Positions 33,824 to 49,352 of a DNA stretch of 64,000 bases are shown one piece after another. The notes under the pieces are model-generated. The model saw nothing but the letters and a program-made list of their open reading frames with translations, was not told where the DNA came from and did no database searches. The stretch is from a virus. A program made the position numbers and the translations under genes. The DNA is taken from positions 1 to 64,000 of the IMG/VR virus record IMGVR_UViG_3300022226_000004; one strand, written 5' to 3'. Position 1 is the first letter of the stretch. Each line of letters starts with the position of its first letter.

Positions 33824-34341
33824 TAAGATCCTTTCGCTACATTGTTGATCTGAATGGCAACTCCCTTCGCCGGCCCATCCCTAAACGACTCAAGCTTGGG
33901 CTGATTACTTGGATCCGTCGCATGGATCTTCAAGATGTTGCCTACCGCTTCATCACGGTCTCTCCATAATCTAGCCTCTAGCTCAGCGAAAGCCAGAAAC
34001 CTTTCGTCTTCATCTTCGCGATCAGCTTTATTGCGGCGTTTGCGACACTTGCGCAGCAATTCGTCCCTGTTCGCATTCGAGAAGACATGCTCAGTAACCC
34101 CTATCCTGTGGAGGCCAATCGCTTGCAATTCACCAGCCATCCCCCTGGCTGCCCTGAACCTCGTTAGTCCAGAGCCCTTCAGCTTCAAGGCCGCGCAAAC
34201 TTGTTGAGCCTCCGCTTCCGTCATGGGAGCGGGTAACGCTTCAGCGACCACGGAATCTATATCGATTTCCTTCTCTCGCCCTTTAGTTGGCTCAGGAGGT
34301 TCTAGATGTGTTTCCGTCATGATCTTCAAGATAGCCCCCAT
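33823..34341 (-). CDS. Possible terminase small subunit or DNA-binding protein (172 aa)
   Basis: N-terminal residues 8-35 are acidic; the middle contains L-K-L-K-G-S-G-L-T-R-F-R-A-A-R-G-M-A-G and then D-E-L-L-R-K-C-R-K-R-R-N-K-A-D-R-E-D-E-D, a basic helical zone suited to DNA contact. The C terminus (G-V-A-I-Q-I-N-N-V) recalls the terminal strand of small terminases. An ATG at 34320 (M-T-E-T-H) is an alternative start. It is far from terL, so the terminase assignment is tentative. Confidence 0.4.
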   Translation of the reverse strand: MGAILKIMTETHLEPPEPTKGREKEIDIDSVVAEALPAPMTEAEAQQVCAALKLKGSGLTRFRAARGMAGELQAIGLHRIGVTEHVFSNANRDELLRKCRKRRNKADREDEDERFLAFAELEARLWRDRDEAVGNILKIHATDPSNQPKLESFRDGPAKGVAIQINNVAKGS

Positions 34342-45759: not shown

Positions 45760-45806
45760 AAAATTAAACCGTAGGCCTAGACAAGTGAGAGCCTTTGGCC
45801 TACGGT
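45760..45806 (-). terminator. Leftward terminator C
   Basis: A perfect 10-bp stem (ACCGTAGGCC 45768-45777 with GGCCTACGGT 45797-45806) surrounds a 19-base loop and is followed leftward by a mixed U-rich tail (TTTAATTTTT). It abuts the rightward early gene and could also be an operator. Confidence 0.6.
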
Positions 45807-45876
45807 GGTGACTGATTATGAAACCGGGATGAGCATCGCTCACCGGCTTCAGAGTGTCAACCACCAAAAAAAGAAA

Positions 45877-46572
45877 ATGACTACAAGAGAAGCACTATTG
45901 GAGCTGATCACCTCAGCTACCGAACCTACCAAAATCGTGACCTACGATATGGCTGACAAACTCGGCGTCAGCCAAAACGCCGTTTTCAGGGCTCTGAAAA
46001 AACTCGTCAGAGACGGGCAGATCAAGCAGGTCGGACCCTCATTGTTCGCAAACCAGTCAACCAGGGTCGAAGAAGGTGTTGTTACGCCTGTTGTTACGCC
46101 TGTTGTTACGCCTGTTGTTACGCCTGTTGTTACGCCTGTTGTTACGCCTGTTGTTACGCCTGTTGTTGAAGGTGTTGTTGAAGGTGTTGTTGACCAACCT
46201 AAGCCGCTTGGCCCCAACACCTTGGAGTCAGGCAGGTTGATAGACGCCGATATTCCGCAAGACCAGTTGGCAACCATGACCAAAGCCGAGCTCGATGAAG
46301 TGATTGCCAGCGGCCCAGAAAGGCACCAGCTGCTATGCTTGAAGGAAAAACAACGCAGAAAACAAGCACAGGACCTCACCAAACTCCCGCAAGGCATGAC
46401 CCTCGATCAATTCTACCGCCAGGAAAACAAGGAGATCTCCAAGAAAAAGGTCGATAGGCTCATCGAAACCATGACCGATGACCCAAAATACGCTGATACC
46501 CTCGGAGTTTGGGCTGTTCCAAATATCACGGAAAGAAAACTCACCCTCCCGGCCCCAGAACCCAAGAACTAA
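45877..46572 (+). CDS. Winged-helix protein with tandem V-V-T-P repeats (231 aa)
   Basis: Residues 1-60 form a winged helix: A-L-L-E-L-I-T-S, then A-D-K-L-G-V-S-Q-N-A-V-F-R-A-L-K-K-L and D-G-Q-I-K-Q-V. Residues 68-95 are seven V-V-T-P units and 96-103 two V-V-E-G units, probably a flexible stalk. The C-terminal half is helical and charged. As the first gene of the rightward operon it may be a regulator or replication factor. The ATG at 45877 is preferred; the frame opens at 45805 but would begin in hairpin C. No strong Shine-Dalgarno. Confidence 0.65.
   Translation: MTTREALLELITSATEPTKIVTYDMADKLGVSQNAVFRALKKLVRDGQIKQVGPSLFANQSTRVEEGVVTPVVTPVVTPVVTPVVTPVVTPVVTPVVEGVVEGVVDQPKPLGPNTLESGRLIDADIPQDQLATMTKAELDEVIASGPERHQLLCLKEKQRRKQAQDLTKLPQGMTLDQFYRQENKEISKKKVDRLIETMTDDPKYADTLGVWAVPNITERKLTLPAPEPKN
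46078..46185 (+). repeat. 12-bp coding microsatellite
   Basis: Seven exact GTTGTTACGCCT units (46078-46161) and two of GTTGTTGAAGGT (46162-46185) lie in frame. Slippage would change stalk length by four residues per unit without breaking the frame. Confidence 0.9.
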
Positions 46573-47336: not shown

Positions 47337-47525
47337 ATGAAATGTCTCATCATCGGTTCCAGAAACGGGAAGATCACCGACGTAGGCCTAGTCGATCACG
47401 ACAAATGGTTCCATCTCAACCCCCCTGGCGTAGATCGCCTCACCATCATCGATGACTTCAACCCCCTTGACTGGACTAACTCCAGGATCTTCCAAGCCTG
47501 GGAAACCTTGAATCACCTTGACTAA
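47337..47525 (+). CDS. Tiny protein, paralogue of 47943 (62 aa)
   Basis: M-K-C-L-I-I-G-S-R-N-G-K-I-T-D-V opens the chain and F-N-P-L-D-W-T-N-S lies in the second half. It is related to the protein at 47943-48134. The leader lacks a strong Shine-Dalgarno. Probably an early accessory protein; role unknown. Confidence 0.6.
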   Translation: MKCLIIGSRNGKITDVGLVDHDKWFHLNPPGVDRLTIIDDFNPLDWTNSRIFQAWETLNHLD

Positions 47526-47840: not shown

Positions 47841-47942
47841 CCTTTCTTCGTGTATGCACCCACCATATTTTCCATTTGAAGACACCAAGGGTATCTTTTC
47901 ATGATCCCAGCCATCCAAACGCTTAAAGGCGAAAGCACTGAA

Positions 47943-48134
47943 ATGAACCTTCTAATCGCTTCCAAAAACGGGGAAATCACGTCTGTCCTCGCTCTCCAAA
48001 TCCCTTGGATACCAACCTTCAACCCAAACCTCTGTGACCGCATCACCTTCATCCAAAACTTCCGCCCCGGTGACTGGACCAATTCTCCCGTCCTCAAAAT
48101 CTTCTCAGACGCCTTCCCTTCAACTAGCCATTAG
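47943..48134 (+). CDS. Tiny protein, paralogue of 47337 (63 aa)
   Basis: M-N-L-L-I-A-S-K-N-G-E-I-T-S-V aligns with the 47337 protein, and D-R-I-T-F-I-Q-N-F-R-P-G-D-W-T-N-S keeps the central motif. A longer frame begins at 47901 with AAGGG ten bases upstream, so the start is uncertain. It ends just before the RNA region. Confidence 0.55.
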   Translation: MNLLIASKNGEITSVLALQIPWIPTFNPNLCDRITFIQNFRPGDWTNSPVLKIFSDAFPSTSH

Positions 48135-48160
48135 TATGTGTGAGAGGGACCCATTATACT
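48131..48160 (+). promoter_or_regulatory. Possible promoter at left edge of RNA region
   Basis: TATACT at 48155-48160 (five of six to the -10 consensus) and TTAGTA at 48131-48136, 18 bases apart, could drive the RNA region. The -35 is weak and overlaps the end of the preceding gene. A start near 48167 would precede the C-rich tract. Confidence 0.3.
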
Positions 48161-48884
48161 GAAAAGCGACTACCCCCCTTACCCCTCCCCCTACCGGGTT
48201 GTAGATATACTTGTCGATTACGCAAGTAACCTAATGGCAGCACGTTACAAAAGTCTCCCTTGACTAGATCCTATTCGTCGAGTTAGGGAGCTGCAGCGAT
48301 TTCAGGCTCATTGGAGCAGAACGAAGTCAACGTAAACGAAAGTTTGCAAGGCCAGACAGGAGTCTGCAAACCAAGCAAACCCAAATGCTGGACGCCACTA
48401 GCATGGGGTTGATCAGAATCGGATGGCCAAGCGGCCGCGACGTTGAATCACGTATCTCTCGACTTCGCTCTATCTGAGAGCAATGAGACGCGAGGAGCAC
48501 GCAAGCCAAGATCCGAGGGCGCCAACTGCTGGAAGTGTTGGTTGCACGCGACGAGAAGATCGCCAGCCACTAGGTGTGGGCCGAAACGAGTCGAGAGACT
48601 GCCGGTGAACTAGGTTTATCCTAGCATGAGCGAAGCGGGGCGTGACGTAAAGGTTAGGTGTAGTGAGCACGGGAGTCGGGAGACAAGCCTCTCACGGATT
48701 CAATGGAACGGGTTAAAGGCCAAAGGGCTTGCTTATGGTGAGCCGGTCAACCAAGAGCGGAACAGTGGTTCAAGACTGCAACAAGATTCCGCCAAGGGAA
48801 AGGCCTTTGTTCAACCGTTCCTTGAACCGAGTCGCAGAAAGCAAGTCATGGTGACAAGCGGGCGATTCGGTTACAAGGAATGAT
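48160..48884 (+). ncRNA. Candidate large structured RNA (~720 nt)
   Basis: No convincing coding frame exists here, yet the strand folds densely. A long helix pairs 48705-48721 with 48802-48821 (16 bp; one bulged base and a four-base bulge). GCGGAA 48757-48762 pairs with TTCCGC 48787-48792. GGTTCAAG 48767-48774 pairs perfectly with CTTGAACC 48821-48828 outside the helix, making a pseudoknot. Other hairpins: TACTTG/CAAGTA (48208-48228), GTTTGC/GCAAAC (48342-48371), GCTCT/AGAGC (48467-48481), AGTC-GAGA-GACT (48589-48600), CTAGG/CCTAG (48610-48624), GTGAG/CTCAC with an inner GGGA tetraloop (48663-48695). GOLLD and ROOL are large phage RNAs of similar size; I could not match either. The 3' end runs into the next gene's leader. 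Confidence 0.6.
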
Positions 48885-49352
48885 ATGAACGCTATTGTAA
48901 GATCCAAGGTCCAAGAGAAATCCATCAAGATTGGCCGACGCGAGGTTCCGCTGAACGATTGCCTAGTGACGCGAGTGACTGCGACAGGAGCCGCGTCATT
49001 GGTTCCGATTAGTCGCAAGGCATTGCGTGAGCGGAATGATTTGACGGCATCGGAGGCCAAGCGGGCGCATCGCGAGGTTTGCATTCATTTAAAGCAAGTG
49101 CAAGCTGGTGTTTTCGCGTCACTATCGGCGAACAGTGATTTCGTGGGGCTTGGGTTCAAGCAGAACGCGAAGGGTAATCGCATCAGTTTTGAGCTCGAGC
49201 ATCGCCTTCCTGAATCGGAGCAATCATCGCGAGCCATCCGCCTAGCGGAGGACAACGCAATGCTCAAGGAGGACAATGAAGTGTTGGCGGCCAAGTTGGA
49301 GGCCATGGAGAAGATGTTACGCGACGCCGGGCTTTTGAAAGACAAGGCCTAG
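48885..49352 (+). CDS. Hypothetical with C-terminal coiled coil (155 aa)
   Basis: AAGGAAT six bases upstream supports the ATG. The first 110 residues are mixed alpha/beta with R-V-T-A-T-G-A-A-S-L-V-P-I-S-R and basic patches; residues about 115-150 form a coiled coil (L-A-E-D-N-A-M-L-K-E-D-N-E-V-L-A-A-K-L). It starts right at the end of the RNA region and may be co-transcribed with it. It could bind the RNA; that is speculation. Confidence 0.65.
   Translation: MNAIVRSKVQEKSIKIGRREVPLNDCLVTRVTATGAASLVPISRKALRERNDLTASEAKRAHREVCIHLKQVQAGVFASLSANSDFVGLGFKQNAKGNRISFELEHRLPESEQSSRAIRLAEDNAMLKEDNEVLAAKLEAMEKMLRDAGLLKDKA

Follow-up and report, generated by a model that had tools for sequence, protein, structure and literature searches.

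A conserved structured RNA in front of a phage gene and its possible role as a large translational switch

The 64,000 nucleotides analysed in this study, referred to as the window, are positions 1 to 64,000 of the 76,991-base virus record IMGVR_UViG_3300022226_000004, which represents a phage of about 77 kb. Between positions 48135 and 48884 the window contains a gene-free stretch, and its comparison with the sequence of a relative points to a real conserved structured RNA, apparently a new class outside all Rfam families. On balance, we favour the interpretation that it is a large cis-acting 5' leader RNA working as a translational switch for the adjacent gene at 48885-49352; a cis-acting leader is preferred to a free RNA because the RNA ends in a structure organised around the start signal of this gene. 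The sole close relative found, IMGVR_UViG_3300022413_000008 (G001; 73,174 bases), has a terminase that is 81% identical, and the genomes are collinear, with a circular permutation between them, their aligned DNA being mostly 64-79% identical. The counterpart stretch in G001, at about 354-1089, is flanked by homologues of the two genes that border the stretch in the window, and the upstream pair was matched by eye. The elements of the proposed switch, with state A and state B as its two predicted folds, are the following:

48135-48884, plus strand: gene-free stretch that would form the 5' leader of gene 48885-49352; coding model negative; collinear counterpart at G001 354-1089
48695-48721, plus strand: 5' strand of the switch helix of state B (start site free), CGG-A-UUCAA-U-GGAACG-g-GUU-AAAGGCC
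48802-48829, plus strand: 3' strand of the switch helix
48818-48880, plus strand: Shine-Dalgarno-burying hairpin of state A, 63 nt, with the base UUCCUUG/CAAGGAA and an upper stem
48875-48879, plus strand: Shine-Dalgarno sequence AAGGA within the 3' strand CAAGGAA of the hairpin, 5 nt before the ATG
48885-49352, plus strand: putative controlled gene, 155 amino acids, first gene of a rightward block

The stretch, flanked by a small gene ending at 48134 and the 155-amino acid gene starting at 48885, is non-coding, as follows from three results. A three-periodic coding model, for which the phage's own genes were used as the training set, gives a negative score to the best frame over 48021-48740, where these frames also contain stops, and the score climbs at the next gene; the sole open frame (48626-48883, 85 amino acids) scores about zero (0.002); and the equivalent of this frame contains stops in the matching stretch of G001, so that no protein frame kept across the homologues was found there. 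A coding explanation was rejected on the basis of the coding model, and the description of 750 gene-free base pairs in an earlier note on this DNA, made from the sequence alone, is borne out.

The same note called the segment strongly structured, which is correct for part of it. Local folding z-scores in 200-nt windows, set against a genome background with a mean of -0.24 and a standard deviation of 1.17, are extreme at 48701-48900 (-6.3; -4.3 to -6.3 in the G001 counterpart) and moderate at 48201-48500 (-2.3 to -2.6), while 48401-48800 is near background (+0.8 to -1.0). Folding of the whole 750 nt gives a z-score of -2.84, with none of 20 shuffles as stable. For the conservation of the structure, RNAalifold was applied to the two aligned stretches, and as a null the substitutions were permuted among columns with the same base; since every permutation was refolded, this control is free of the bias that comes from picking helices. 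The middle part reaches a z-score of -4.2 and the 3' part -4.7, with none of 100 permutations as good in either case. The first 250 columns show no conserved fold (z-score -0.7; 21 of 100 permutations as good), and the helices drawn there were discarded as chance. As judged from the aligned sequences, the conserved RNA structure spans about 48390-48880, and the 5'-most 250 nt contribute only a conserved motif of 30 bp. The conserved helices upstream of the switch are:

48393-48396/48518-48521 and 48406-48413/48442-48449, plus strand: weaker long-range helices from RNAalifold, within the middle stretch (48393-48521) with the z-score of -4.2
48522-48541, plus strand: hairpin CCAACuGCU/AGUGUUGG (CCUACuGCU/AGUGUAGG in G001), with one compensatory change from A-U to U-A
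48567-48579, plus strand: hairpin CCAC/GUGG (UCCC/GGGA in G001), two of four pairs altered on both sides and still pairing
48580-48606, plus strand: two-part GNRA hairpin, outer helix 48580-48583/48603-48606, inner helix 48589-48592/48597-48600
48610-48624, plus strand: hairpin CUAGG/CCUAG (GUGAG/CUCAC in G001), three of five pairs altered on both sides and still pairing
48663-48695, plus strand: stem GUGAG/CUCAC, invariant, with flanks among the best-conserved stretches of the RNA

Five helices within 48566-48711 keep all 22 pairs in both phages, eight of them changed on both sides, a retention that none of 200,000 column permutations equalled, a count which overstates the significance because the helices were picked with both sequences in view; when the partners are slid by one to three columns, 34-52% of the cells are paired. 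The GNRA hairpin retains 8 of 8 pairs with three changed on both sides, and its loop GAGA (48593-48596) becomes GAAA in G001, which keeps the GNRA type on a covarying stem. The earlier note had listed a second hairpin of this type, with a GGGA loop, which is not conserved and was dropped.

The switch helix consists of 24 pairs (48695-48721/48802-48829) in each phage without a mismatch, and includes two double and three one-sided changes. All three one-sided changes lead to G-U pairs in G001, as would be expected of a plus-strand RNA and not of DNA. The 16-pair helix proposed before (48705-48721/48802-48821) is thereby confirmed: it is present in the sequence, carries two compensatory pairs in the inner portion and extends outward to the 24 pairs in both phages. 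The hairpin said to be enclosed by it (48757-48762/48787-48792) is literally present in the window, but no counterpart was seen in G001. The same applies to the proposed pseudoknot, an 8-bp match (48767-48774/48821-48828) for which no counterpart of similar length was seen in the G001 sequence, and which was dropped because its conservation was not seen.

The start-site hairpin has a predicted energy of -32.2 kcal/mol in the window, and none of 2000 shuffles of its inner part is as stable; in G001 it lies at 1021-1083 with -39.1 kcal/mol (2 of 2000 shuffles as stable). Its base is identical in both phages, and the upper stem differs in sequence yet remains paired. The first MAFFT alignment had misplaced the G001 start codon and this upper stem, and both were compared by hand. 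The buried AAGGA stands 7 nt before its own ATG in G001, and the unpaired probability predicted for the start region of the gene at 48885 is 0.115, against a median of 0.53 over 71 genes, of which only one has a lower value. Nucleotides 48818-48829 are used by both the switch helix and the start-site hairpin, which makes the two folds mutually exclusive, and both are kept in both phages. By prediction, the start signal is therefore buried in one fold and free in the exclusive other, in both phages. Constrained folding yields -73.0 kcal/mol for state A and -70.9 kcal/mol for state B in the window, and -83.0 and -79.1 kcal/mol in G001. In growing transcripts of the window, treated as equilibrium folding at each length and not as a kinetic simulation, state B is populated at 0.97-0.99 until about 48872, followed by state A (0.99 from 48890), and the order is the same in G001.

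According to the leader interpretation, rightward transcription of the stretch would yield the long 5' leader of the gene at 48885-49352, and we infer that transcription begins near 48129-48158. The body at about 48390-48700 would be a sensing or protein-binding domain, and the last 190 nt a translational switch whose two folds rule each other out. State B would form first, since both strands of its helix are made before the start site, which would leave AAGGA exposed for ribosomes to bind. In state A, newly made CAAGGAA would pair with 48818-48824, displace the switch helix and stop translation. If the switch is in use, the choice between the states would depend on a signal on the body, which might be an antisense RNA, a metabolite, the product of the gene itself or a different protein of phage or host.

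Several points weigh against this interpretation. The structural comparison is based on two genomes, which makes a covariation test on a deep alignment impossible, and to this the choice of the five helices mentioned above has to be added. In G002, the next closest relative with a complete genome, nothing matches the RNA model, and the start site at the GC-skew pole is not buried (0.66 unpaired). No recognisable sigma-70 promoter was found in the stretch, and state A lies below state B by 2.1 (window) and 3.9 kcal/mol (G001), so that state B needs kinetics or a ligand. Finally, the 155-amino acid product has no Pfam match above the cut-off and no PHROG or NCBIfam match.

The RNA also has a narrow distribution in the searches carried out. 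Farther relatives, with terminases 34-57% identical and several of them fragments, gave no match to the stretch; a covariance model of the RNA, run over 826 kb comprising the window and its relatives, matched only the window and G001; and three degenerate patterns searched over IMG/VR retrieved G001 only. Two patterns searched over bacterial genomes gave 0 and 18 matches, of which the 18 were rejected as chance, as scoring with the covariance model showed agreement in the searched core alone. Isolated phages and plasmids, searched at the nucleotide level, yielded nothing useful.

The structure could also serve a replication origin, where the stretch would act mainly as DNA, or as a ColE1-like RNA primer, and the hairpins would help to open, prime or nick the origin. 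The GC skew of the genome has the minimum expected of an origin and makes its largest jump at 48275 (0.37; next 0.18); the largest jump of G001 falls in the counterpart stretch at 751 (0.27; next 0.11) and that of G002 is located at 68950 (0.31; next 0.18). The third-codon skew is -0.14 to -0.67 in the five plus-strand genes just left of the stretch and +0.25 in the plus-strand gene just right of it; as it flips from about -0.6 to +0.25 between neighbouring genes of the same strand, gene orientation is not the cause. The phage furthermore encodes a replication initiation protein, a DnaC-like loader and a single-stranded DNA-binding protein. However, the genes for the initiation protein and the helicase loader are 17 kb away, no iterons and no DnaA box, even with one mismatch allowed, were found, and there is no AT-rich patch (GC content 0.526 in 48001-49000). 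Moreover, the flip in the window falls within the part without a conserved fold and not at the conserved helices, whose G-U pairs and GNRA loops suggest RNA. We therefore regard an origin as an unlikely purpose of the structure. It is a rival in this respect only, as origin and leader can coexist, and the stretch may overlap a replication origin: the skew flips at window 48275, G001 751, G002 68950 and G016 34325 are probably replication origins. The flip in G016 is the strongest of that genome (jump 0.57), and the iteron-like repeats CCCAAAAACGGGGGAGGTC and CCCCCAAAAATGCT are found at it (33980-34330, corresponding to L051 13980-14330). The conserved motif lies at the edge of the stretch:

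48129-48158, plus strand: 30-bp conserved motif CATTAGnATGTGTGAnnGGGACCCATTATA on the 5' edge of the stretch, a candidate for a promoter or an origin-binding site

It is identical in G001 at 27 of 30 positions and occurs once per genome in both phages, has no sigma-70 match, and its core is present in no other IMG/VR contig. A degraded copy exists in G002, about 430 bp from the skew jump at its pole, and in both G001 and G002 the largest jump is no more than about 450 bp away from the motif copy. The motif is followed by unrelated proteins in the window and in G002. Beside the skew pole of G002, an unrelated non-coding stretch of 1.2 kb (67400-68600, minus strand; L045 7400-8600) folds strongly in places and has a terminator-like hairpin, AGCGGCAG...CTGCCGC, with TTTTTT after it; it may be another phage RNA.

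GOLLD and ROOL, with which the earlier note had compared the segment, are cage-forming RNAs of phages and prophages, often near tRNA islands, with no function assigned (PMC12286853). The stretch resembles them as a phage-encoded large structured RNA of a similar size class (PMC12286853), and it could accordingly be a free-standing ornate RNA, processed or terminated before 48885 and acting in trans, whose 3' end merely happens to be the start-site hairpin. The Rfam covariance-model search that the note had called for matched no family: there was no match at the gathering threshold over the 64 kb, and permissive filters over 47900-49000 returned only a chance match to pRNA (E 2.7). ARAGORN found no tRNA in the window or in bases 60000-76991, no terminator-like site follows the RNA, and in both phages the following gene has its start signal, normally spaced, within the 3' hairpin. 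As the covariance models do not match, a tRNA island is absent and the 3' end is linked to a start codon, a free-standing RNA appears improbable, and of the note's proposal the large conserved RNA without an Rfam family stands, whereas the analogy to GOLLD and ROOL does not. In G001, ARAGORN calls a possibly false tRNA-Asp with the unusual anticodon ATC (72901-72989; L009 12902-12990, minus strand), which precedes the leader by a few hundred bases when the map is read as a circle and was not found in the window.

A fixed, unregulated leader, in which the hairpin merely lowers translation or protects the 5' end of the mRNA and the alternative helix arises incidentally from the repeated GGAAC/GTTCC words, would agree with the greater stability of state A in both phages and with the start regions of four other window genes, which are about equally buried. 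Since it leaves unexplained both a competing helix of 24 pairs with compensatory changes and about 300 nt of conserved structure upstream, we consider it very unlikely.

Translational riboswitch leaders are roughly 100-200 nt long. The proposed switch shares with them, and with other leaders that bury a Shine-Dalgarno sequence, two predicted exclusive folds, one of which hides the start of the adjacent gene; the structured part upstream, at 48390-48700 and conserved between the two genomes, is a putative sensing domain. It differs in its far greater length of about 500-720 nt, in having no known aptamer and in being found in two phages only. The leader of T4 gene 32, which mediates autogenous repression by gp32, is likewise a phage leader whose RNA structure controls translation of the adjacent gene (PMC535899). 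The RNA described here is much longer and has no conserved pseudoknot, and autogenous binding by the product of the gene at 48885 is only an analogy. For the repZ leader of ColIb-P9, PMC8383071, citing Asano and Mizobuchi (1998), describes a pseudoknot switch with an antisense RNA. It resembles the stretch as a structured leader near an origin (here a possible one) in which alternative pairing decides on access to the start site. The differences are that the window's pseudoknot lacks conservation in G001, that the gene at 48885 shows no similarity to a replication initiator and that no leader frame is conserved. Both systems are best seen as parallels in mechanism and not as evidence of membership.

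The product of the gene at 48885 is about 50% identical to that of the G001 gene starting at 1090, the only relative retrieved when the protein was searched in IMG/VR and among isolates, and its structure model (predicted local distance difference test score 71.6) has no fold match in the PDB at E 0.001. The neighbouring small genes 47337-47525 and 47901-48134 have in common a motif around DRxTxIxxFxPxDWTNS and are apparent paralogues, and 45805-46572 encodes a winged-helix regulator-like protein with about seven VVTP repeats in a run. The map of the record is probably circular, since its ends (1-9 and 76983-76991) both read ACCGAAAGA and G001 runs across the junction. As a tyrosine recombinase/integrase gene is present at 67219-68127 of the genome (L002 7220-8128), the phage may be temperate or resolve dimers.

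Only tentatively, the stretch can be taken as a member of a new class of very large phage leaders at the replication origin, which would sense an infection or replication signal and switch the gene on or off by strand exchange at the start site. Few large structured phage RNAs are known and most have no assigned role, and the anatomy described here suggests a role that can be tested. If the stretch is also located at the origin, the leader would link the timing of replication or infection to early gene expression.
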